Shown: positions 28,716 through 42,220 of the stretch, piece after piece
How the letters are laid out: every line of letters starts with the position of its first letter
Position numbering within the stretch: position 1 is the first letter of the stretch
NCBI GenBank assembly: GCA_017412675.1
Contig: JAFPWV010000019.1
Span: forward strand, 1-42,703
Length of the DNA stretch: 42,703 nt
Source: Clostridia bacterium
GTDB lineage: Bacteria > Bacillota > Clostridia > Oscillospirales > CAG-272
Direction of reading: 5' to 3'
Program-made: the position numbers and the translations under genes
The notes under the pieces: generated by a model
Told to the model about the DNA's origin: nothing
Databases searched by the model: none
The model's input: the letters and a program-made list of their open reading frames with translations, nothing else

Positions 28716-28758
28716 CGTCCGGAGCCCCCCTTGATTTCGCTTTGAAACGGATTTGCAC

Positions 28759-29586
28759 ATGAAATCAGATATTATCTTCGGCCAGTATGTGGAAGGGGAT
28801 TCCCTGATCCACCGGCTCGATCCGCGCATCAAGATCATCGCGGCCTTTCTCTACATCGTCGTGATCTTCCTTGCGAAGAGTGCGACGGCCTTCGCGCTGC
28901 TCACCCTGTCGGCGGTCGTCTTCGTCCTCATGACCCGGATCCCGCCGCGGATGATTTTCCGCGCGATGAAGCCGCTCATCTTCATCATCCTCTTCACGGC
29001 GGTCATCAACCTCTTCTTCATGACGGGCGAGCATCTCGTGTTTCAGCTCGGCTTCATCAAGGTCTACCGCGAGGGGATCGTCAACGCCTTCCTCATCGTG
29101 CTCCGCATCCTTCTCCTCATCGTCGCGACCTCGGTGTTCCTGACCTACACGACGACGCCCATCGCCCTGACGGACGCGCTCGAATCGCTCCTGTCACCGC
29201 TCAAGAAGCTGCACGTTCCGGTGCACGAATTCTCGATGATGATGACCATCGCCCTGCGCTTCATCCCGACGCTGATCGACGAGACGCAGAAGATCATCAA
29301 CGCCCAGACGGCGCGCGGCGCGGATTTCACCTCGGGCGGGCTGATCCAGCGGGGCAAGGCGCTCATCCCGATCCTCATCCCGCTCTTCATCTCGGCGTTC
29401 CGGCGCGCGGACGAGCTGGCGACCGCGATGGAGTGCCGCTGCTACACGGGCGGCGAGGGACGGACCCGGATGAACACGCTGAAAAGCGAGCCGAAGGACT
29501 GGGCCTTCCTCTGCGTGATCGTCCTGCTCGGCGCGGCGGTCGTATTGCTCAACCGGTTCTTCCCGCTCGTGACGATCCAGCTGTGA
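28759..29586 (+). CDS. ecfT: Energy-coupling factor transporter transmembrane protein EcfT
   Basis: A 275-residue scaffold protein. It begins with a short cytoplasmic stretch (HRLDPRIKIIAAF, the family-typical opening) and has several hydrophobic helices between about 20 and 125 and one at the C terminus (about 250-270). The coupling helices carry the family signature arginines: QTARGADF near residue 180 and AMECRCYTGG near 220, a variant of the usual AxARGY. These touch the Q-helices of the two ATPases. The ATG at 28759 is preferred to an upstream TTG. The gap to ecfA2 is 43 bases and truA starts 10 bases after the stop, the standard Firmicute order. Confidence 0.92.
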   Translation: MKSDIIFGQYVEGDSLIHRLDPRIKIIAAFLYIVVIFLAKSATAFALLTLSAVVFVLMTRIPPRMIFRAMKPLIFIILFTAVINLFFMTGEHLVFQLGFIKVYREGIVNAFLIVLRILLLIVATSVFLTYTTTPIALTDALESLLSPLKKLHVPVHEFSMMMTIALRFIPTLIDETQKIINAQTARGADFTSGGLIQRGKALIPILIPLFISAFRRADELATAMECRCYTGGEGRTRMNTLKSEPKDWAFLCVIVLLGAAVVLLNRFFPLVTIQL

Positions 29587-29596
29587 CGGTGACGAA

Positions 29597-30403
29597 ATGA
29601 AACTTCTTCTCAAACTGATCTGGAACGGCGCGGGGTACGCGGGCTATCAGGCCCAGAACGACGAAGACGCCCCGAAGCCCTCGATCCAGCGTACCCTCAC
29701 CGCCGCGTTCTCCGAGGGGTTCGGCTTCCCCTGCAAAGTCACGGGATGCAGCCGCACCGACGCGGGTGTGCACGCCCTCGGATTCTGTGCAGCCGTCGAA
29801 CCGGCAGATCCGGCAGAGGCGCGGGACGGCTGGCTCCGGATCCCCGTCGGACGGGTACACCGGGCCATGCGCTGCGTCCTGCCCCCGGATATCGCGATCG
29901 CGGGCGAGGCGGCGGTCCCGGATGACTTCCACCCGCGGTATTCCGCCGTCGGGAAGGAGTACGTCTACCGCATGAACGACGCGCCCTGGGACGATCCTTT
30001 CGCGGCGGGGACTGCCTGGCATCTTCCCCGGCCCCTGCCCCCGGACGGCGTGGACCGCATGAACCGGGCTGCCGCGTATTTCGTCGGGCGGCAGGACTTC
30101 ACCTCGTTCATGGCGGCGGGCTCGAAGATCACCGACGCGACCCGGTGCGTGACGGCGCTCTGCGTGACGCGGTCCGGGCACGACCTCGCGCTGAACGTCG
30201 CGGCGGACGGATTCCTCTATCACATGGTCCGCATCCTCGCGGGGACGCTCGCCGACTGCGCGTGGGGGACGATCGAGCCGGAAGACATGGCCGCGATCCT
30301 TGCAGCGCGCGACCGGACGAGAGCCGGCAGGACCGCGCCCGCCCACGGACTCTATCTCGCGCGGGTGGACTACGATCCCCCGATCAACTGGCTCTGCCTG
30401 TGA
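29597..30403 (+). CDS. truA: tRNA pseudouridine(38-40) synthase TruA
   Basis: A 268-residue enzyme that makes pseudouridine at positions 38-40 of tRNA anticodon stems. The catalytic Asp lies in CSRTDAGVHA (about residues 51-60). Further family landmarks are FHPRYSA, EYVYRM, GRQDFTSFM and FLYHMVRILAGTL. Its length is normal for the family (about 245-270). It starts ten bases after ecfT and is presumably on the same transcript. rplM and rpsI, which often follow truA in other Firmicutes, are absent; instead a short repetitive spacer leads to a membrane protein gene. Confidence 0.95.
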   Translation: MKLLLKLIWNGAGYAGYQAQNDEDAPKPSIQRTLTAAFSEGFGFPCKVTGCSRTDAGVHALGFCAAVEPADPAEARDGWLRIPVGRVHRAMRCVLPPDIAIAGEAAVPDDFHPRYSAVGKEYVYRMNDAPWDDPFAAGTAWHLPRPLPPDGVDRMNRAAAYFVGRQDFTSFMAAGSKITDATRCVTALCVTRSGHDLALNVAADGFLYHMVRILAGTLADCAWGTIEPEDMAAILAARDRTRAGRTAPAHGLYLARVDYDPPINWLCL

Positions 30404-30512: not shown

Positions 30513-31724
30513 ATGCCCCGGACGGATGAAAAGCTGGCGGTTGCCGGAAAGATCGAACCGGAATTCAACCGACACTATGCCAAGGTGGCGAAACGGTACG
30601 CCGCGGCGGGGATCGTCTGCATGATCCTCTTCGTCGGGTATCTGCTCGGTCTGATCGTCTTCGGCTCCGAGTACATCACCTACGACAACATGCGCTACCT
30701 GATCCGCGACTTCGGCACGGCGGCAGGAGAGGGTACCCGGGAATTCGGGAAGATCGTCTACAACGGCTCCGCCGACACCGTGTTCGCCTATTTCCGCGGA
30801 GGCGCGGCGGTCTGTACCCCGGATGCCTACCGCTATTTCGACAAGAACGGCACGCAGATTATCGCGGACCCGCTGAATTATTCGGATCCCGTGCTCGCGC
30901 CTTCGGAAAAATACATGCTCGTCTATGACATGGGCGGCACGGGCTATTCCGTTTACAACCAGCTCACCGGGATCGTCGCGAAGGAGACCGAGGGCCGGAT
31001 CATCGCGGCGGATGTCGCGGACGACGGCTCGCTCGTGCTCGTGACGCGCTCGAAGGACACGAAATTCGTGGTCGAGCTGAACAATGCGGCCTTCAACAAG
31101 ACGATGGAGGTCTACAAGGACGGCTATGTGCTCGGCGTCGCGATGGCCCCGGACGGGAAGCAGTTCCTCGTGGCCTCGGCGGTGCAGTCCTCCACGGACT
31201 TCAACTGCGAGATCCAGATCTGCGAGCGCGGCTCGGCCGAGGAGGTCTCGAAGGAGATCATCCCCCATACGATGCCGCTGGCGGTGCGCGCGACGGACGA
31301 CGGGTACATCGTGCTCTGCGACACGGCGGTCTACTATTACAGCCGCTACGGCACCGCCGTCAAGACCGTGTCCCTCGCCGGGATGACGCTGAAATACGCG
31401 GACATCGGCGGCGGACGGGTCGCCCTGCTCGGGCAGGTGAACGCGCTCGGCAGTGAACACCGCATCCTCGTGCTGGACCGGGCGGGCGAGATCCTCTACG
31501 ACGGCACGATGCGCACCCGGCCGAGCGGGATCCGGGCGTCACGCGGCGAGGACGCGCTCTGCTATCTCATCACCTCCGACGGCGTGATCCGGGTCGCGGC
31601 GGACAGATCCCTCTCGCAGGAGAGTCCGGAGAGCGGCGACATCCTCGACGTTATCCCGCTCAGCGCGGGCGCCCTGATGTGCCAGAAAAACGCGGCCTAT
31701 CAGATCTTCGTCGGGAAAAAGTAA
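30513..31724 (+). CDS. DUF5711-like membrane protein
   Basis: A 403-residue protein. A charged N-terminal 27 residues is followed by one membrane helix (about 30-50, IVCMILFVGYLLGLIVF), then an outside domain of about 350 residues. That domain is built of short beta strands with Asp/Gly turns (AADVADDGSLVLVTRSKD, GVAMAPDGKQFLVAS, YADIGGGRVALLGQV), which reads like a WD40/beta-propeller fold. Proteins of this size and context, next to a CvpA protein, are annotated DUF5711 in Clostridia; I am fairly but not fully sure of that assignment. The function is unknown. AAAGGAGG upstream gives a strong start at 30513. Confidence 0.7.
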   Translation: MPRTDEKLAVAGKIEPEFNRHYAKVAKRYAAAGIVCMILFVGYLLGLIVFGSEYITYDNMRYLIRDFGTAAGEGTREFGKIVYNGSADTVFAYFRGGAAVCTPDAYRYFDKNGTQIIADPLNYSDPVLAPSEKYMLVYDMGGTGYSVYNQLTGIVAKETEGRIIAADVADDGSLVLVTRSKDTKFVVELNNAAFNKTMEVYKDGYVLGVAMAPDGKQFLVASAVQSSTDFNCEIQICERGSAEEVSKEIIPHTMPLAVRATDDGYIVLCDTAVYYYSRYGTAVKTVSLAGMTLKYADIGGGRVALLGQVNALGSEHRILVLDRAGEILYDGTMRTRPSGIRASRGEDALCYLITSDGVIRVAADRSLSQESPESGDILDVIPLSAGALMCQKNAAYQIFVGKK

Positions 31725-31817: not shown

Positions 31818-32546
31818 ATGACGCTGGCGATTGACGCGATTCTGATTTTTGCGGCGGTTTTGTGTATCTGGGCGGGGACGCGGAAGGGATTCGTGCGCTC
31901 CGTCATGGGCCTCATCAGCACCCTGGTGGCGGCCATCGCGGCGTACGCCTATACGCCCGTGCTCGCCGCCTTCATCCGCGACCGGTATCTCATCGGGCGG
32001 ATCACCGACGGCATCGACGAGACCCTTCGTTCCCTTGCCTTCGACACGTCGACCGATCTCTTCAACCTCGACCGCGTCGCCGCCGATCTTCCGGAGCCCT
32101 TCACGGCGATCCTCTCGCGCTACCGGATCGACCTCTCGGCCATCGTGGAGAAGATGCGCGGGTTCACCGGCGTGGATCGGGAAGCGGTGCGCTCCGTGGC
32201 AAGCGATATCGCCGGTCCGACGGCAAACGCGCTGGCCTCTGCGATCTCCTTCCTCCTCCTCTTCATCGGCGCGATCATCGTGCTCTCGCTCTTGACGCTC
32301 CTGCTCGACGCGATCTTCCGTCTCCCGGTGCTGAAGGGCGCGAACACCTTCTTCGGATTCCTCTTCGGCGTCCTCGAGGCGGCGGTGATGGTCAGCGTGC
32401 TCGCAATCGTGATCTCCGTACTGACGGAAGCGCTCGGCGCGTTTGACCCGGCGCTCTTCGGTCCGGAAACGGTCGACCGCACGGTGGTGTGCCGCTTCCT
32501 CCTCCAGTATAATCTCTTCGACAAGATATACGCGGTTTTGCGGTAA
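31818..32546 (+). CDS. CvpA family membrane protein
   Basis: A 242-residue membrane protein. It starts with the CvpA-like pattern of a short hydrophobic helix, then RKGFVRSVMGLIS and a second helix; two more helices lie at about 135-160 and 180-205, giving about four segments in all. The loop between the second and third helix (about 55-125) is polar. CvpA-type proteins are poorly characterised, being linked to colicin V production and envelope stability. AGGGAG near 31802-31807 supports the ATG at 31818. The gene is followed 45 bases later by the ClpE-like gene and preceded by the DUF5711-like gene, both of which may share its transcript. Confidence 0.8.
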   Translation: MTLAIDAILIFAAVLCIWAGTRKGFVRSVMGLISTLVAAIAAYAYTPVLAAFIRDRYLIGRITDGIDETLRSLAFDTSTDLFNLDRVAADLPEPFTAILSRYRIDLSAIVEKMRGFTGVDREAVRSVASDIAGPTANALASAISFLLLFIGAIIVLSLLTLLLDAIFRLPVLKGANTFFGFLFGVLEAAVMVSVLAIVISVLTEALGAFDPALFGPETVDRTVVCRFLLQYNLFDKIYAVLR

Positions 32547-34874: not shown

Positions 34875-34966
34875 CCGCCTGATGCAGAGCTGAAACCGCT
34901 TGCGGTTCCTCCCCCTGTTCACGCTTTCTCTCTTCATTGTTCACTTTTCGCAAGAAGGAGGCTCCG

Positions 34967-37807
34967 ATGAACCTGTCCAATTCCTGGCACCTCTTGGATA
35001 ACGGCGAGGTGCTCCGGCTCCTCGAGTCGGATATGTATCAGGGCCTCTCGTCGAAGGAGGCGAAAAAACGCCGCCGCGCCTCCGGCTCCAACAACGTGTG
35101 GCATGTGAAGCGCACCCCCGCCGGGGAAGTCGTGCTCTCCGCCCTCTTCGATCTGCCGACGCTCCTTTTGGCAGTCAGCGCGGGCGCCGCCGCCATCTTC
35201 GACAAGCGCTTTGAAGCGGGCGCGATCGCTGCGGTCCTCGTCGCGGGGGCTCTGCTCCGGACGGCAGCCGCCGTGCGCGCCAACCGCATTCTCGAGGACA
35301 TGGCCCGCGAGCGCATCCCGCACTCCTCCGTCATCCGCGACGGACGCATCCACCTCCTCCCTGCCGAGGAGATCGTCCCCGGCGACATCATCTTCCTCGA
35401 GGCGGGCGACACCGTCCCCTGCGACGGGAGAGTCATGACCGGCGAGGACGCCGTCGTCAGCGAGCGCGGGATCACCGAGAACAACCTCCCGGTCCATAAA
35501 TTCAACACCGTCATCGCGACCGACGCCGACAGCGGGGAGATCCCCTGCGAATTCCGCTCGAATATGCTCTTCGCCGGGTCGCTCGTGCTGTCCGGATCCG
35601 TGCGCATCGCCGCGACTGCCTGCGGAGACGGCACCCTCGTCTCGATGAAGCAGGGCGGCGTGACCGTCGAGGCCGAACACAGCTTTCCCCTCGTCGAGCG
35701 CCTGCGCAGGTCGGGCCGCACGGTCAGTCTGTGTATGCTCGCGGCCGTCCTCGTGCTCACCGTCCTCTCCCTTTTCGTGGGGGACGGCTTCACCCTGCCC
35801 GACGTCTTCCTCTGCACCATGGCGATGGCCGTCGCCGCGATGAGCGAGTTCATGCCCGCCGTCGCGTCGATCATCCTGGCTTCCGCCGTGCGGGACGCAG
35901 CGTCCGGGAGGGAGCCTGTCGGGTGGCGCGACGCCGTGAAGAGACGTCTTGACGATGCCAAGAACACCGTGCGGGGCAGGGAAGACGAGATCCGTGCCGC
36001 GAGCCGCGCCGTGTTCCGCGATCCGTCCCGCATGGAGGAGGTCGCATACCCCGACGCCGTCGTCTTCTGCGGCACCGAATTCTTCAAATCCGGCAACGCG
36101 GAGCTCCTTGCCTACCGCTTCCGCGGAACCTATACCGGCATCGACGAGCGCGGCGGGGATCCGTCGGAGCTTTTGGCCCTCGCGCTCGCCGCAACCTCGC
36201 AGACCGCGTCGCGGAGTGCATCGCGCGGCGGGGAAAAGACGGGCATGTCCGCGGGCGGCAGACGCTCCCTGTCCCATAAGGCCGCCGGACGTGCCGCACT
36301 GGTTTCCGCTGCGGCGGACGCCTGCGTGCATCGGACGGGCAAGCCCATCGGCTACGGGTTCGCGCTCGCGGATCACCGCGATTCGACCGACCGGATGGCG
36401 ATGAACTGCGAGGTCTCCCTTGCGGAGGCGGGCGGAGAACTGTGGGCGGTGGCCTGCGGCGCGCTCGGTGACGTTTTGGCCTGCTGCTCGACCGTGGAGA
36501 CCGCGTCCGGGGCGATCCCGCTGACGGACGATGAGCGGCGGAAATACTTCGCCGAAGCGGCGGCACTCGAATTCGGCGGCGCGCGCGTGCTGGCAGTCGC
36601 CCGTCGGACCTCGCCCTATCCGCAGCTCAACCGGCTCGCGGTCCTGACGCAGGCGATGAGCTTCACGGGCTTCTTCGCCGTCGCGCTGGAACCCGAGGAA
36701 GGCGCGCGGGAGAGCATCGCGTTTCTGAAGGAAAGCCGCGTCTGCCCGATCCTCTTCACGGAGACACCCGAAGAGGACCGGTATTACGGCACCCGGATCG
36801 GGCTTTTCGAGCGCGACACGCCCGTGATCCCGTTCGCGGAATGGAACGCGATCCGGGCGAAGGAGGTCCTCTCCGGGAGTGAGAACGACCGCCGCGGGGT
36901 GATCGTGTCCTTCGAGGACATCGGCGACCAGTACCTCGGCGGCGCGTATGTGCAGGCCATGACGGCGCTCGGCGCAGCGGACGGGGATGCCGTCACGGCA
37001 GCGGTCGGGCGGGAAGCCTGGGATGCCGGCGCGCTCGGACGGGCGGATTTCGGCTTTGCCGTGACCCGCTCGAAGATCCGCGCAGTCCCGGATGCCCTTG
37101 CGCGCAACGCAGCGGCGGTGATCTGGCCGGGCGACGGATGCGCGGCGGGATACGGCGGTCTGGACGGCGTCCGGGGCGCGGTCCGCACGGCGCAGCGGGT
37201 GCTCGCAAATACCGAAACGGCGAAATTCTATCTGACGGCCTCGCAATGCGCGCGGCTTCTCACGGTCCTCGCGGCGATCCTCGGATGGATCCCGCTGCTC
37301 GGAGCGGTGTTCCTCCTCGTGTGGGGCCTGATCTTCGACTTTGCCGCGATGCTCGTGATGGCGTTCGACCGCGACGGAAAACCTCCCCGGGCCCGCCCCA
37401 CGGAGGAAACGGACCGGCGGCGCACGCGGTTTGCGATCGTGTCGGGGCTTCTCTGGGGATTGCCCCTCGCGGCCCTGCCGATCCTCTTCCGGTATGCGCC
37501 GGCGCTTTCGGAGCTCTGGTCCCCGGAGAGCGCGCGGGCGATGCTGTCCTCCGCGGCGATTTTGTCGGGACTGGCGTTTTCGGCGGAATGCGGCGCGAAC
37601 GGGAGCCTCTTTTTGAAGCGGGAATTCAACCTCGCGCAGGCGATCTTTGCGCTGACCTCGGCGGCGTTTGCGGCGTGGATCCTCTTCTCGTCCGTAGGCG
37701 CGTCGATCGTCGGCGGGGTGCCGTGCGGCGCGGAAGGACTCTGTGCAGTCCTCCCGGCGGCGTTCGTGCTGCTCGCGGCGGAGATCCGGAAAGCGGTGAA
37801 GAAGTGA
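34967..37807 (+). CDS. Degenerate P-type (cation) ATPase-like membrane protein
   Basis: A 946-residue protein with the full P2-ATPase plan: two N-terminal helices (about 53-100), an actuator domain with PGDIIFLEAGDTVPCDGR (138-155), helices M3-M4 (about 252-310), a cytoplasmic P/N region (about 310-750) and about six C-terminal helices. All catalytic motifs are changed: TGES reads TENN (170-173); PEGLP reads SEFMP (293-297); the DKTGT site reads VVFCGTEFF (365-373); KGAPE reads CGALG (497-501); MITGD reads LFTET (596-600); GDGVND reads GREAWD (681-686). Acidic residues remain in M4 (Glu294) and in the M6 region (Asp791). It cannot form the phospho-aspartate and is probably a pseudoenzyme; its function is unknown. 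AAGGAGG (34955-34961) fixes the start. It follows the ClpE-like gene by 92 bases. Confidence 0.85.
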   Translation: MNLSNSWHLLDNGEVLRLLESDMYQGLSSKEAKKRRRASGSNNVWHVKRTPAGEVVLSALFDLPTLLLAVSAGAAAIFDKRFEAGAIAAVLVAGALLRTAAAVRANRILEDMARERIPHSSVIRDGRIHLLPAEEIVPGDIIFLEAGDTVPCDGRVMTGEDAVVSERGITENNLPVHKFNTVIATDADSGEIPCEFRSNMLFAGSLVLSGSVRIAATACGDGTLVSMKQGGVTVEAEHSFPLVERLRRSGRTVSLCMLAAVLVLTVLSLFVGDGFTLPDVFLCTMAMAVAAMSEFMPAVASIILASAVRDAASGREPVGWRDAVKRRLDDAKNTVRGREDEIRAASRAVFRDPSRMEEVAYPDAVVFCGTEFFKSGNAELLAYRFRGTYTGIDERGGDPSELLALALAATSQTASRSASRGGEKTGMSAGGRRSLSHKAAGRAALVSAAADACVHRTGKPIGYGFALADHRDSTDRMAMNCEVSLAEAGGELWAVACGALGDVLACCSTVETASGAIPLTDDERRKYFAEAAALEFGGARVLAVARRTSPYPQLNRLAVLTQAMSFTGFFAVALEPEEGARESIAFLKESRVCPILFTETPEEDRYYGTRIGLFERDTPVIPFAEWNAIRAKEVLSGSENDRRGVIVSFEDIGDQYLGGAYVQAMTALGAADGDAVTAAVGREAWDAGALGRADFGFAVTRSKIRAVPDALARNAAAVIWPGDGCAAGYGGLDGVRGAVRTAQRVLANTETAKFYLTASQCARLLTVLAAILGWIPLLGAVFLLVWGLIFDFAAMLVMAFDRDGKPPRARPTEETDRRRTRFAIVSGLLWGLPLAALPILFRYAPALSELWSPESARAMLSSAAILSGLAFSAECGANGSLFLKREFNLAQAIFALTSAAFAAWILFSSVGASIVGGVPCGAEGLCAVLPAAFVLLAAEIRKAVKK

Positions 37808-37901: not shown

Positions 37902-39170
37902 TTAATCTTCGCTCTTCACTCTTTCCGCTTCCCGCGCCGCCGAGAGCATCAGCTTCAGGCGGTTTTCCTGATTCACCGCCGAGGTGCCCGGGTCGTAGTC
38001 GATCGCCACGATGTTCGCCCCCGGGATCGCCTCCTTGATCGGCTTCATCATGCCCTTGCCGCAGATGTGATTCGGCAGGCATCCGAACGGCTGGGTGCAG
38101 ACGATGTTCATCACGCCGGAATCGCAGAGCTCCAGCATCTCCGCCGAGAGGAGCCAGCCCTCGCCCATCTTCGTGCCGTAGCCGATGAAGTCCTTCGTCA
38201 GCTGCATCGTGTGGTCGAACGGCGTCATCGGGCGGAACGTCCCCTCTTCCCGGATCGCGGCGATCAGGTCCCGCTGCTTCGAGAGCAGGAACCGGTAGGC
38301 GATCTTGGAGAGCAGGTATTTCGTGCGCGAATGCGTCTTCGGGTAGAGCTTGTAATCGATGATCCCGTTGCACACGCAGTAGTTGAAGAAGTCGAGCAGG
38401 CCGGGCATCACGACCTCGGCGCCTTCGGATTCGAGGAATTTCTCGAGCCCGTTGTTCCCGAGCGGGGAGAATTTCACATAGATCTCCCCGACGATCCCGA
38501 CCCGAACGACCTCCGGACGCTCCACGCGCGGAATGGCCGCAAAGTCGCGCACGATCGCGGCATAGTTCTTTTTGATGTGCCCGTAGGAGATCGTGCGGCG
38601 GGCGAGCTCCCCGACGAGGGTCTCGGTCCAGCGCGTACAGAGCGCATCCGCCGCGCCCTTTTCCGCCTCGTAGGGACGCACCTGATTCGCAAGGGCCATC
38701 ATCAGGTCCCCGTAGAGGACGCCGTAGGCCATGCGGTGGTAGAGCGGGATCGAATTCCGGAAGCCCGGGTGCCGCTCGATCCCCGCGAGGGAGAGCGGGA
38801 TCACCGGGACATAGGCCATCCCCGCGTTTTCGAGCGCCTTGCGCATCAGGGAGACATAGTTCGAGGCCCGGCACCCGCCGCCCGTCTGGAAGAGCATCAG
38901 GGCGCATATGTGCGGGTCGTACTTCCCGGAGAAGAGCGCGTCGAGCATCTGCCCGATCACGAGGATCGCGGGGTAGCAGGTGTCGTTGTGGACGTATTTC
39001 TGCCCGGTCTCCGCGAGGTGCGGGCCGGTCGTCTCGAGCAGGACGGCGTGATAGCCGTCGTTTTCGAGGATGCGCTTCACCAGCTTGAAGTGGATGGGAA
39101 GCATGTTGGGGATGAGGATCGTGTGGGTCGACTTCATCTCCGCCGTGAATTGGACGTAATTGTGTTTCAT
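37902..39170 (-). CDS. 2-hydroxyacyl-CoA dehydratase activase, C-terminal component
   Basis: A 422-residue cytoplasmic protein that matches the C-terminal third of the large acyl-CoA dehydratase activase proteins (about 1,400 residues) of Firmicutes. Landmarks are NDTCYPAILVIGQML (near residue 62), LMLFQTGGGCRASNY (near 91), a KFSPLGNNGLEKFL segment (near 233) and CTQPFGCLPNHICGKGM (near 357), where the cysteines probably bind an Fe-S cluster or contact the dehydratase. The parent family resembles 2-hydroxyglutaryl-CoA dehydratase components. Here it is a separate gene starting 80 bases after the stop of the N-terminal component; together they total about 1,411 residues. Only a distant AAGGAAA precedes the ATG. 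No dehydratase A/B subunit gene is visible nearby. Confidence 0.8.
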   Translation of the reverse strand: MKHNYVQFTAEMKSTHTILIPNMLPIHFKLVKRILENDGYHAVLLETTGPHLAETGQKYVHNDTCYPAILVIGQMLDALFSGKYDPHICALMLFQTGGGCRASNYVSLMRKALENAGMAYVPVIPLSLAGIERHPGFRNSIPLYHRMAYGVLYGDLMMALANQVRPYEAEKGAADALCTRWTETLVGELARRTISYGHIKKNYAAIVRDFAAIPRVERPEVVRVGIVGEIYVKFSPLGNNGLEKFLESEGAEVVMPGLLDFFNYCVCNGIIDYKLYPKTHSRTKYLLSKIAYRFLLSKQRDLIAAIREEGTFRPMTPFDHTMQLTKDFIGYGTKMGEGWLLSAEMLELCDSGVMNIVCTQPFGCLPNHICGKGMMKPIKEAIPGANIVAIDYDPGTSAVNQENRLKLMLSAAREAERVKSED

Positions 39171-39227: not shown

Positions 39228-39262
39228 GCGGTGCTCTCGACCCGGAACGTTCAGAGCACCGC
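39228..39262 (-). repeat. Inverted repeat across the stop of the large activase gene
   Basis: GCGGTGCTCT at 39228-39237 and AGAGCACCGC at 39253-39262 form a perfect 10-bp stem with a 15-base loop. It covers the stop codon of the large activase gene and lies about 60 bases before the start of the smaller one. No T run follows on the minus strand, so it is unlikely to be a terminator; it could slow ribosomes or protect mRNA ends. Confidence 0.6.
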
Positions 39263-42220
39263 AGCCAGGCTCCTCAGCCGGATCTTGACCGCGCCGAGGT
39301 TGGCGATCTCGTCGATCTTGATCTGCGTGTAGTATTTGCCCGCGGCCTCGAGGATGCGCTTGACCTCGTCCGTCGTGATGGCGTCGACGCCGCAGCCGAA
39401 GGACACGAGCTGCACGAGCTGCACGTCGGGATTGTCCGCCGCGAAGGCCGCCGCCCGGTAGAGACGGGAGTGATAGGTCCATTGGTTGAGGACGTGGACG
39501 TCCGGGGTCGCGGCGAGATGGTAGACCGAATCCTCCGAGACGACCGCGAAGCCGAGCGAGACCGCCAGCTTGTCGATCCCGTGGCCGATCTCCGCGTCGG
39601 CGTGGTAGGGACGCCCGGCGAGGATCATCACGGGACGGCGGTTTTCGCGCGCCCAGCGGACCGCCCGCTCGCCCTCTGCCTTGACCGCATCGCCGAATTC
39701 CCCGAGCATCCGGAAGCCCTCGGAAACGGCGCGGCGGATCTCAGCGCGGCGTATGCCCGGGAACCGGTCCCTGAATTCGCGCCAGAGGCCGTCCGCCAGT
39801 TCTCCTTCGCTGTCGAGGGAGAGATAGGGGTAGAGGAAGCGGACCTTCCGGAGGCTGTCCATGTTGCCGCGGAGCAGCTCGCTGTAATACGCGACGACCG
39901 GGCAGTTATAGTGGTTGTCGGAGGCGTGCTCGTCGAGGTTCCACGTCATGCGGGGATAGAAGACGGCGGGGACTCCCTCTTCCACGAGCTTTTCGATATG
40001 GCCGTGCATGATCTTCGCGGGATAGCACGCCGTGTCGGACGGGATCGAGAACTGCCCCTTTTCGTAGATCGCCTTCGAGGACATCCCGGAGAGGACCGGG
40101 GTGAAGCCGAGCGAGCGGAAGACGCCGACCCAGAGCGGGAGGAGCTCGTACATCCCGAGGCAGAGCGGAAGCCCGATCGCGCCGCGCGGACCGACCTCTT
40201 CGGGGATCGTGTCGGGCGCGAGGGAGAGGAGGTAGTTCCGCTTGAATTCGTGCAGGTTCGGGACGCCGCGGTTGACGGCCGCCATGCCCGCGCCTTTCTC
40301 GCATTTGTTACCGGAGATGAAGCGTGCGCCGCCCGAGAAGGTGTTGACGGTCAAGAGGCACCGGTTGGTGCAGCCCTGGCAGGTCGCGGTCTTCGAGGTG
40401 TGGGTGAAGGAGGCGAGGGCGTCCTTCGAGATGAGTCTGGTGGGCTCGCCGGTCTTTTCCGCGCGTTCCTTTGCCCAGAGCGCCGCGCCGTAGGCTCCCA
40501 TGAGCCCCGCGATGTCCGGCCGGACGACCTCGCGCCCGATCTCCCGCTCGAAGGCGCGCAGAACGGCGTCGTTGTAGAAGGTGCCGCCCTGCACGACGAT
40601 GTGCTGCCCGAGCTCGTCGGGGGAGTGCGCGCGGATGACCTTGTAGATCGCGTTCTTGACGACGGAGAGGGAGAGGCCCGCCGAGATGTCCTCCACGGTC
40701 GCGCCGTCCTTCTGGGACTGCTTGACCTGCGAATTCATGAAGACGGTGCAGCGGCTCCCGAGATTGACCGGCGCCTCGGCGAAGAGGGCCTTTTGGGCGA
40801 ATTCCGCCGACGTGCAGCCCATGGAGCGGGCGAAGGTCTCGATGAAGGACCCGCATCCGGAGGAGCAGGCCTCGTTGAGCATGATCCGGTCGACCGCGCC
40901 GTTCTTGATCTTGAAGCACTTGATGTCCTGCCCGCCGATGTCGAGGATGAAGTCGACGTCGGGCATGAAGGTCTTCGCGGCGGTGTAGTGCGCGACGGTC
41001 TCGACGATGCCGTAATCGACGCCGAACGCGTGCCGGATCAGCTCCTCGCCGTAACCCGTGACGGCCGCGCCGAGGAACGTGACGTCCGCCGGGGCGGTTT
41101 CGTAGATGTTCGTGAGCTCCTGCCGCACGATCGAGACGGGATCGCCGTGGTTGGAGGCGTAGTATGTATAGAGCAGCTCGCCCGCGGATCCGATGACTGC
41201 GAGCTTGGTGGTCGTGCTGCCGCAGTCGATGCCGATCGCCGCCGGACCGTGATAGTCCGCGAGGGAGGCGAGGGGGACGGATGCCTTCCGGTGGCGCGCG
41301 GCGAAGGTCTCGTATTCTTCGCGGTCCCGGAAGAGCGGCTCGGTGCGGGTCGATGTGGAGCGGATCTTCGCGCCTTCGATCTTCGAGATGAAGCCGTCGA
41401 GGTCGCAGAGATCGATGTCGTCCGAGACGCGGACGGTGCGGGAATACAGCGCGGCGCCGAGAGAGACGGCATTGCGGGCATATTCCGGGAAGATGGCGTT
41501 GTCCGGGGAGAGGCCGAGCGTCTCGACGAAGCGTTCGCGCAGCCCGCGGCAGAAGTACAGCGGCCCGCCGAGGAACATGACGCGTCCCTCGATGCGGCGG
41601 CCCTGCGCGAGTCCGGCGACGGTCTGGTTGACGACCGCCTGATAGATCGACGCGGCGATGTCCTCCTTGGACGCGCCTTGGTTGAGGAGGGGCTGGACGT
41701 CCGATTTGGCGAAGACGCCGCAGCGCGACGCGATCGGGTAGATCTTTTTGTGCCGCAGGGCGAGCTCGTCCATTTCGTCGGGCGTGACGTCGAGGAGGGA
41801 GGCCATCTGGTCGATGAACGCCCCGGTCCCGCCCGCGCAGGTGCCGTTCATGCGCTCGTCGGTGCCGCCCTGCCAGAAGATGATCTTCGCGTCCTCGCCG
41901 CCGAGCTCGATGACGACGGAGATATTCTTTTCGAGTTTCTTGATGACCTCTCCGGTGGCCCAGACCTCCTGCACGAAGGGGATGCCCGCACCCTGCGCCA
42001 AGCCGAGACCGGCGGAGCCGGAGATGGCGGAGGTGAAGCGCTCCTTGCCGAGGACGGGGGCGGCTTCCCCGAGCATCTCGACGAGGGATTCGCGGATGCG
42101 GGAATAATGCCGCCGGTATGCGGTATAGACGATGTCGTCCCCGCGCAAAACGGCGATCTTGGCGGTGGTGGAGCCCACGTCGACGCCGAGGGAGAGGGGA
42201 AGTGTAGCGGAATGATTCAT
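39251..42220 (-). CDS. Acyl-CoA dehydratase activase with two ASKHA ATPase domains
   Basis: A 989-residue protein. It holds two ASKHA (BadF/HgdC-type) domains: the first from LGVDVGSTTAKIAVL (about 11-25) with GGEDAKIIF and an NGTCAGGTGAFIDQM Cys motif, the second from IGIDCGSTTTKLAVIG (about 332-347) with GGQDIKCFKI and a LNEACSSGCGSFIETF Cys motif. Each Cys motif is expected to ligate a [4Fe-4S] cluster shared by a dimer, and ATP hydrolysis drives electron injection into a dehydratase. The last 350 residues resemble DUF2229-type activase extensions (SDTACYPAKIMHGH, AGRPYHADAEIGHG, VSFGCGVDAI). In many Clostridia this continues into the neighbouring smaller protein. AAGGAA about 11 bases before the ATG supports the start. 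Confidence 0.88.
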   Translation of the reverse strand: MNHSATLPLSLGVDVGSTTAKIAVLRGDDIVYTAYRRHYSRIRESLVEMLGEAAPVLGKERFTSAISGSAGLGLAQGAGIPFVQEVWATGEVIKKLEKNISVVIELGGEDAKIIFWQGGTDERMNGTCAGGTGAFIDQMASLLDVTPDEMDELALRHKKIYPIASRCGVFAKSDVQPLLNQGASKEDIAASIYQAVVNQTVAGLAQGRRIEGRVMFLGGPLYFCRGLRERFVETLGLSPDNAIFPEYARNAVSLGAALYSRTVRVSDDIDLCDLDGFISKIEGAKIRSTSTRTEPLFRDREEYETFAARHRKASVPLASLADYHGPAAIGIDCGSTTTKLAVIGSAGELLYTYYASNHGDPVSIVRQELTNIYETAPADVTFLGAAVTGYGEELIRHAFGVDYGIVETVAHYTAAKTFMPDVDFILDIGGQDIKCFKIKNGAVDRIMLNEACSSGCGSFIETFARSMGCTSAEFAQKALFAEAPVNLGSRCTVFMNSQVKQSQKDGATVEDISAGLSLSVVKNAIYKVIRAHSPDELGQHIVVQGGTFYNDAVLRAFEREIGREVVRPDIAGLMGAYGAALWAKERAEKTGEPTRLISKDALASFTHTSKTATCQGCTNRCLLTVNTFSGGARFISGNKCEKGAGMAAVNRGVPNLHEFKRNYLLSLAPDTIPEEVGPRGAIGLPLCLGMYELLPLWVGVFRSLGFTPVLSGMSSKAIYEKGQFSIPSDTACYPAKIMHGHIEKLVEEGVPAVFYPRMTWNLDEHASDNHYNCPVVAYYSELLRGNMDSLRKVRFLYPYLSLDSEGELADGLWREFRDRFPGIRRAEIRRAVSEGFRMLGEFGDAVKAEGERAVRWARENRRPVMILAGRPYHADAEIGHGIDKLAVSLGFAVVSEDSVYHLAATPDVHVLNQWTYHSRLYRAAAFAADNPDVQLVQLVSFGCGVDAITTDEVKRILEAAGKYYTQIKIDEIANLGAVKIRLRSLAAVL

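Follow-up and report, generated by a model that had tools for sequence, protein, structure and literature searches.

A conserved lineage of P2-type ATPase homologues without intact catalytic motifs, encoded directly behind a ClpE-type unfoldase in Clostridia

Introduction

P-type ATPases are a textbook enzyme family, defined by the aspartate that becomes phosphorylated. Here we analyze a gene on a 42,703-nucleotide stretch of DNA from a Clostridia bacterium (contig JAFPWV010000019.1; the whole stretch is called the window), whose product has the architecture of a P2-type ATPase and no intact catalytic motif. We refer to this gene and its relatives as pseudopumps. Among described systems, the P2A Ca2+-ATPases (SPCA, LMCA1 and PacL type) share with the window protein the domain order, the membrane part, the core of the actuator (A) domain, a Glu in transmembrane helix M4 and an Asp in M6. 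They differ in their DKTGT, TGES, KGA, TGD and GDGVND motifs, none of which is intact in the pseudopump, and in the Asn and Glu of M5, which are mostly Gln and Arg in the pseudopump.

Three further systems offer partial parallels. Human TMEM94 (ERMA) has a P-type-like fold without TGES, and ATPase activity was not detected (PMC12134183), while another paper names it a Mg2+ ATPase (PMC13322241); it has an Asp (D417) that is discussed as a phosphorylation site. Plasmodium guanylate cyclase beta (PfGC beta) bears a degenerate P4-ATPase domain (PMC6592433), a eukaryotic parallel that is of P4 type and fused to a cyclase, whereas the pseudopump is of P2 type and is a separate gene beside ClpE. The P3A H+-ATPases AHA2 and Pma1 pair an Arg of M5 with an Asp of M6, and a salt bridge between the two is predicted for the E2 state (PMC10654040); the pairing in the pseudopump may be similar, but the P3A proteins are working pumps.

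In the search listings of open-licence literature, we found no bacterial family of inactive or pseudoenzyme P-type ATPases, and no link of ClpE with CvpA or with P-type ATPases. A review of P-type enigmas yielded, for the terms searched, no passage on inactive members, and neither P-type nor transporter occurs in the main text of a pseudoenzyme review (PMC10211241). This agrees, for open-licence papers, with a first-pass annotation of the window, made from its sequence alone, which knew of no described family of this kind.

Results

The pseudopump frame is open over 946 codons plus a stop, from an ATG at 34967 (an alternative TTG start lies upstream at 34937). The first-pass annotation had described an intact frame aligning with P2-type ATPases, and a profile-profile alignment against ten intact pumps bears this out, spanning 858 columns and residues 6-919 of the window protein (probability 100, E 1.2e-83). 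Pfam recognizes the A domain (1e-30) and Cation_ATPase_N (5e-11) above cut-off, matches Cation_ATPase_C (the C-terminal membrane part) below cut-off, and recognizes nothing in the phosphorylation (P) and nucleotide-binding (N) domains. Of the 27 members of one alignment (E up to 0.01), all match the A domain and 26 the N-terminal part, whereas 9 match the C-terminal part, one matches the N-domain family and none matches a P-domain family.

An AlphaFold2 model of the window protein, built on a 28-row alignment in which 23 rows are DKTGT-bearing pumps, has a predicted local distance difference test score (pLDDT) of 73.5 and a predicted template modelling score (pTM) of 0.67; a model built on five pseudo sequences alone (pLDDT 33.7) was unusable and was set aside. 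We compared the first of these models with the PDB, a check against P-type pump folds that the first-pass annotation had proposed: the 50 rows shown are all P-type ATPases, nearly all P2, and the best overall fit among them is to hSPCA1 (8iwp) in the CaE1 state (TM score 0.74/0.77, root-mean-square deviation 5.8). Taken together, Pfam, the profile alignment and the model give the P2A order, from the N-terminal part through the A, P and N domains to the membrane helices; the statement about the fold is based on the alignment and on a model that intact pump sequences helped to build.

Within this architecture the catalytic motifs are altered (Table 1). The first-pass annotation had held that every one of them was replaced, and TGES, DKTGT, KGA, TGD and GDGVND do read as it stated, with the nuance that three single residues are retained: Thr170 of TGES, D686 at the end of GDGVND, and the N-domain residue Arg540. 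DKTGT is absent from the whole window protein. At the phosphorylation site MAFFT and hhalign disagree by one residue, so that we make no claim as to which residue, Cys or Gly, has replaced the Asp.

To place these changes in the family, we used a main alignment of 94 pseudo and 17 active sequences, where active denotes those with DKTGT and the pseudo set omits short or partial open reading frames (G018, both G006 pieces, G090, G109 and G065) as well as G115. Every one of the 17 DKTGT-bearing references has retained the TGES Glu and GDGxND as well. Of the 94 pseudo sequences, only 9 retain the TGES Glu, 2 retain the first Asp of GDGVND and 37 the Asp of TGD; GDGVND ends in an acidic residue (Asp or Glu) in 75, and a basic residue (Arg or Lys) stands at the N-domain Arg position in 55. 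A motif survey of 106 matches in addition to the window gave 17 DKTGT-bearing sequences, one active-pump fragment and 88 pseudo-type rows (87 loci, one gene being in two pieces; G018, G090 and G109 are partial). At every motif position covered, a few rows being partial, these 88 rows and the window are without TGES, DKTGT and GDGxND. We also looked for a hidden DKTGT, which the first-pass annotation had named as a possible objection to its own reading, and found none: among 95 other pseudo open reading frames of at least 650 residues, GDG[VI]ND does not occur, and DKTG occurs once and TGES twice, all three off the motif positions. The pseudo family also has signatures of its own, Trp7 (89%) and a Gly-Gly at 730-731 (94 and 97%) in place of the pumps' P-domain Asp-Asn.

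Could some of these proteins still pump, with unorthodox chemistry, at least where an Asp is kept at the phosphorylation position? Seventeen of the 94 have an Asp in one of two candidate columns, without KTGT, including six congeners with LSD or LGD (LSDMELF, LSDIRLL and similar), and the frequent retention of the last GDGVND residue and of the N-domain Arg points the same way. None of the 17 keeps KTGT or the first Asp of GDGVND, however, and an Asp at or beside the phosphorylation column together with that first Asp is found in 0/94; the TGES Glu is rare throughout, and the lineage of the window has no Asp at the phosphorylation site. We therefore consider continued pumping very improbable. 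It is strongly supported, on the evidence of the motifs, that this protein derived from a P2 pump would no longer form an aspartyl-phosphate or transport ions.

Table 1. Positions of the pseudopump, its altered motifs and membrane-site residues, and the genes upstream of it. Genomes not counted for an upstream cluster may include loci cut by contig ends.
Feature	Position	Strand	Basis or remark
P2-type pseudo-ATPase of 946 aa, none of its catalytic motifs intact	34967..37807	+	frame, Pfam, alignment, model
TENN, residues 170-173, replaces TGES	35474..35485	+	alignment
VVFCGTEFF, residues 365-373, at DKTGT phosphorylation site	36059..36085	+	alignment
CGA, residues 497-499, at KGA nucleotide site	36455..36463	+	alignment
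TET, residues 598-600, at TGD	36758..36766	+	alignment
GREAWD, residues 681-686, at GDGVND; first Gly and last Asp kept	37007..37024	+	alignment
M4 Glu294 (SERCA E309 position); Glu in 78/94 pseudo sequences	35846..35848	+	alignment
M5 Gln760 and Arg763 at places of pump ion-site Asn and Glu	37244..37255	+	alignment
M6 Asp791 (SERCA D800 position); Asp in 90/94 pseudo sequences	37337..37339	+	alignment
ClpE-type AAA+ unfoldase; N-terminal CxxC..CxxC, two AAA modules, xGF loop	32592..34874	+	named from architecture, without a match to a ClpE-specific model
CvpA (Colicin_V) membrane protein; cluster upstream in 75 genomes	31818..32546	+	
DUF5711 protein; cluster upstream in 73 genomes	30513..31724	+	
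TruA-type tRNA pseudouridine synthase; cluster upstream in 69 genomes	29597..30403	+	
CbiQ/EcfT-type T component of an energy-coupling factor (ECF) transporter; cluster upstream in 63 genomes	28753..29586	+	

The altered gene is widely conserved. An orthologue is found in 24 of 24 sampled congeners; 22 of these were aligned and are 28-95% identical to the window protein, and the assemblies of the remaining two give incomplete genes, that of G006 lying in pieces on two contigs and that of G018 being truncated close to the end of its contig. At a cut of E 1e-112, the profile matches 95/196 genomes of the GTDB family to which the window belongs, the window's own among them; this is a profile count, with a cut set after viewing the list and with 66 of the 95 read at motif level. 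Eleven further members lie below this cut: G212 and ten divergent pseudopumps found by reading downstream of ClpE in 26 further family genomes without a strong match. The same reading in 20 genomes of other families gave two divergent pseudopumps (G051 and G054). Full-length open frames occur in dozens of genera, and close relatives were found in four database records from rumen or Clostridia/Ruminococcus metagenome assemblies. Among 394 genomes of the order there are 18 matches, 14 of them family members (window included) and four outside the family with TGES, DKTGT and GDGxND. At class and phylum level, where the profiles could miss very divergent pseudopumps, the best 14 matches read (7/22 and 7/18 listed genomes other than the window) all have these three motifs. 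A scan of viral contigs with the pseudo profile, which used one peptide pattern, found no relative.

We calculated the ratio of nonsynonymous to synonymous substitution rates (dN/dS, Nei-Gojobori) for 11 pairs of pseudopumps and obtained 0.09-0.28; per-domain values in three pairs are 0.02-0.30. For comparison, the values are 0.06-0.10 for ClpE, 0.13-0.25 for CvpA and 0.13-0.25 for DUF5711 (8 pairs each) and 0.06-0.09 for active P2A pumps (3 pairs), placing the pseudopump in the range of its neighbours CvpA and DUF5711. The gene is maintained by selection as a full-length membrane protein, and chance is excluded because the altered gene is conserved in other genomes.

These data bear directly on plain decay of a pump gene, or an assembly artefact, which we judge extremely improbable. 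The cut frame of G018 and the split gene of G006 would fit decay, as would nine other genomes above the 1e-112 cut, for which the match is listed as containing one or two stops. However, in the window, G101 and G035 the stop is the gene's own, and the rest have open frames of 916-938 residues as listed; full-length frames recur across genera, dN/dS is far below 1 in all domains, and identity declines in a gradient from 95 to 23% among separate assemblies. The first-pass annotation had pointed to decay as what would undo its reading, to be recognized by intact nearest relatives and a high dN/dS, and had proposed the homologue search and the dN/dS analysis; instead, the congeners carry the altered form wherever the motifs are covered, under purifying selection. 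Its suggestion of selection on a non-enzymatic role is supported by both the dN/dS values and the conservation, with the role itself inferred from gene order. We thus find homology to an enzyme family, loss of its catalytic residues and purifying selection, and we conclude with near certainty that the gene product is a pseudoenzyme.

In a FastTree phylogeny of 111 sequences, one change separates the 94 pseudo from the 17 active sequences with support 100; the root of this tree is not known, the program gave a long-branch warning for divergent members, and the placement of G051 and G054 is unsure. The tree fits a scenario in which catalysis was lost once and the pseudopumps then diversified over a long time.

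In the window's genus, ten pseudopump-bearing genomes were found on reading to encode DKTGT-bearing pumps too. In G031 the pseudopump stands tail-to-tail with an intact P2A pump gene (L062 3385-9115), and in G121 (L121), of the same genus as G031, with the end of one at the contig edge. The role of the pseudopump might thus be to regulate, without catalysis of its own, an active P2A Ca2+-type pump with which it shares a cell and forms a mixed complex. We regard this as decidedly unlikely: the adjacency is seen in one genus only, the constant neighbour is ClpE, and the window genome's three other P-type matches are on other contigs, the one that was read (C112) being intact.

We next consider the membrane ion site, using SERCA numbering for the positions compared (E309, Asn768, Glu771, Asn796, D800). 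The P2A Ca2+ site (M4 E, M5 N/E, M6 N/D) is present only in part: the M4 Glu and the M6 Asp are kept, and the M5 Asn/Glu and the M6 Asn are replaced. In the pseudo set, the Asn768 position is mostly Gln, the Glu771 position is Arg in 81 and Lys in 9 of 94, the Asn796 position is Gly in 89/94 and the M4 Pro position is Ser in 53/94. The M5 Arg/Lys and the M6 Asp co-occur in 90/94 sequences, the other four having neither. Because Asn768, Glu771 and Asn796 are replaced, most Ca2+ ligands are gone and a putative internal charge pair is left. The alignment therefore confirms the retention of Glu294 and Asp791 reported in the first-pass annotation, but its proposal that ion binding could survive is weakened by the M5 and M6 replacements.

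In the absence of phosphorylation chemistry, the simplest role for the M5-M6 charge pair would be to substitute for an ion and so fix a single conformation; the main alternative is a proton switch. In that alternative the protein would be an ATP-independent sensor of protons or cations, or a leak, with M5 Arg, M6 Asp and M4 Glu as a protonatable switch that signals pH or voltage to the headpiece or to ClpE. The M6 Asp (90/94), M5 Arg/Lys (90/94) and M4 Glu (78/94) are indeed among the best conserved positions of the membrane domain, the upstream CvpA and ECF part are membrane proteins, and the Arg-Asp salt bridge of P3A pumps is described in a review as expelling H+ (PMC10654040). On the other hand, the ion path is rebuilt at the M4 Pro and M6 Asn796 positions, and a fixed salt bridge would rather block a conducting path. 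A sensor or leak is possible on this evidence, though we hold it to be unlikely.

The strongest functional clue, unmentioned in the first-pass annotation, is the gene order around ClpE and CvpA. A ClpE-type gene lies directly upstream of the pseudopump, on the same strand and within 367 nt, in 84/87 pseudopump genomes (88 loci); of the three exceptions, G019 and G096 lie on contigs that end soon upstream, and in G090 the place is taken by other genes. Over 85 loci, and using the longest possible gene starts, the gap between the two genes has a median of 20 nt, with 77 at or below 100 nt, eight negative and a largest value of 367. The two genes stay together even in genomes whose pseudopump has diverged so far that it matches at E ~1e-48, and they are also paired in two other families of the order. 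In G051, which belongs to another family, the arrangement TruA-DUF5711-CvpA-ClpE-pseudopump is seen again. G035 has two ClpE-pseudopump pairs (L164, L178), with ClpE 93% and the pseudopump 70% identical, for which assembly contamination is possible. The pseudopump thus stands in a close-packed row with a ClpE-type AAA+ unfoldase and CvpA, and the row is probably co-transcribed. The gene linkage of Clp adaptors and receptors with their Clp ATPase has its counterpart here.

In other families of the order, CvpA flanks ClpE in 19 of 21 loci, and 18 of those 19 are without a pseudopump. Because CvpA-ClpE is mostly without a pseudopump there, it seems that CvpA and ClpE formed a unit first and that the pseudopump was added later. 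At 29 loci of other orders of the class, no CvpA was found by the CvpA profile. The rule of CvpA-ClpE without a pseudopump, together with TruA and the ECF part in the same row, would suit an operon hitchhiker with a membrane task of its own that does not involve ClpE, such as a role in the envelope together with CvpA and DUF5711. Against this, the pseudopump stays directly behind ClpE over very large divergence and in both ClpE loci of G035, and we consider a hitchhiker quite unlikely.

In an alignment of 121 sequences, the ClpE proteins keep both AAA modules (the window's Walker-B change apart) and the xGF loop, which we take to be the ClpP contact. Their zinc-finger cysteines are kept in the 114/121 rows that cover them, 7 rows being without coverage. 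NCBIfam gave no ClpE match for the window ClpE, and its Clp matches are below cut-offs. According to a review of Bacillus Clp systems, ClpE is induced by severe heat shock and its zinc N-domain is suggested to be an oxidation sensor (PMC5506225). No CtsR-like box was found in the window when up to 3 mismatches to the consensus were allowed. Neither promoter-like sites (0, against 1.2 expected) nor terminator-like sites (6, against 6.2 expected) are more frequent than in shuffled sequence.

Several observations concern the neighbours themselves. The window ClpE has Val for the second-module Walker-B Asp (NLFVEIEKAH), where the other rows of the 121 have DEIEKAH or DEIEKGH, either as a real variant or as an assembly error; a coevolving ClpE defect was rejected, this Val being private to the window genome among the 121 rows. 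In G572 (L345), of another order of the class, the P-type gene directly after ClpE is a CopA-like P1B with TGES and apparently unrelated. Behind the pseudopump of the window, on the - strand, lie two genes of BcrAD_BadFG/DUF2229 type (CoA enzyme activase type; 39251-42220 and 37902-39170), which are near a pseudopump in only 7 genomes.

Discussion

Because of the gene order, we propose that the pseudopump is a pump-derived, ATP-independent membrane partner of ClpE. The M5 Arg - M6 Asp pair would stand in for the transported ion and fix the conformation of the ten-helix membrane part, and this part would bear the rebuilt A/P/N headpiece, which would serve as a platform for docking at the inner face of the membrane. 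ClpE may dock on this headpiece, and docking would bring ClpE (with ClpP) to the membrane, or membrane clients to ClpE; ATP would be hydrolysed by ClpE and not by the former pump. As a complete model, we give this proposal an even chance of being right.

Several observations weigh against it. Sixteen of the 26 family genomes without a strong match showed no pseudopump downstream of ClpE, some of them with little contig left, and the partial copy of G090 is not beside ClpE. ClpE does not need the pseudopump, since 18 of the 19 CvpA-flanked ClpE loci elsewhere in the order are without one. The pseudopump evolves about twice as fast as ClpE, and because of this fast evolution, and because motif positions differ between genera, no single conserved docking surface was identified on the headpiece. 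The four sequences without the M5-M6 charge pair are among the most divergent and are possibly misaligned. Finally, since the row also holds TruA and an ECF transporter part, neighbourhood alone is no proof of partnership.

A bolder form of the partnership is a split machine, in which the dead pump would keep a membrane-substrate cleft and the headpiece, with the motor outsourced to ClpE: a dislocase whose AAA+ ring pulls clients that the pseudopump selects. Such a machine would work like the P5A helix dislocases with a different engine, and we rate it as rather improbable.

The pseudopumps have consequences for annotation and for biology. Such genes risk being annotated as cation-transporting ATPases from the A domain alone, since only this domain and the N-terminal part pass the Pfam cut-off in the window protein. 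A prokaryotic lineage spanning dozens of genera has dropped the phospho-chemistry and kept the 900-residue fold, showing that the fold has a use that selection can maintain in the absence of that chemistry. Its constant association with ClpE points to a branch of Clp proteostasis at the membrane, and the pseudopump offers a testable case of a pump becoming a receptor or a sensor. Together, these observations suggest that an old pump has been turned into a membrane partner with a new job.

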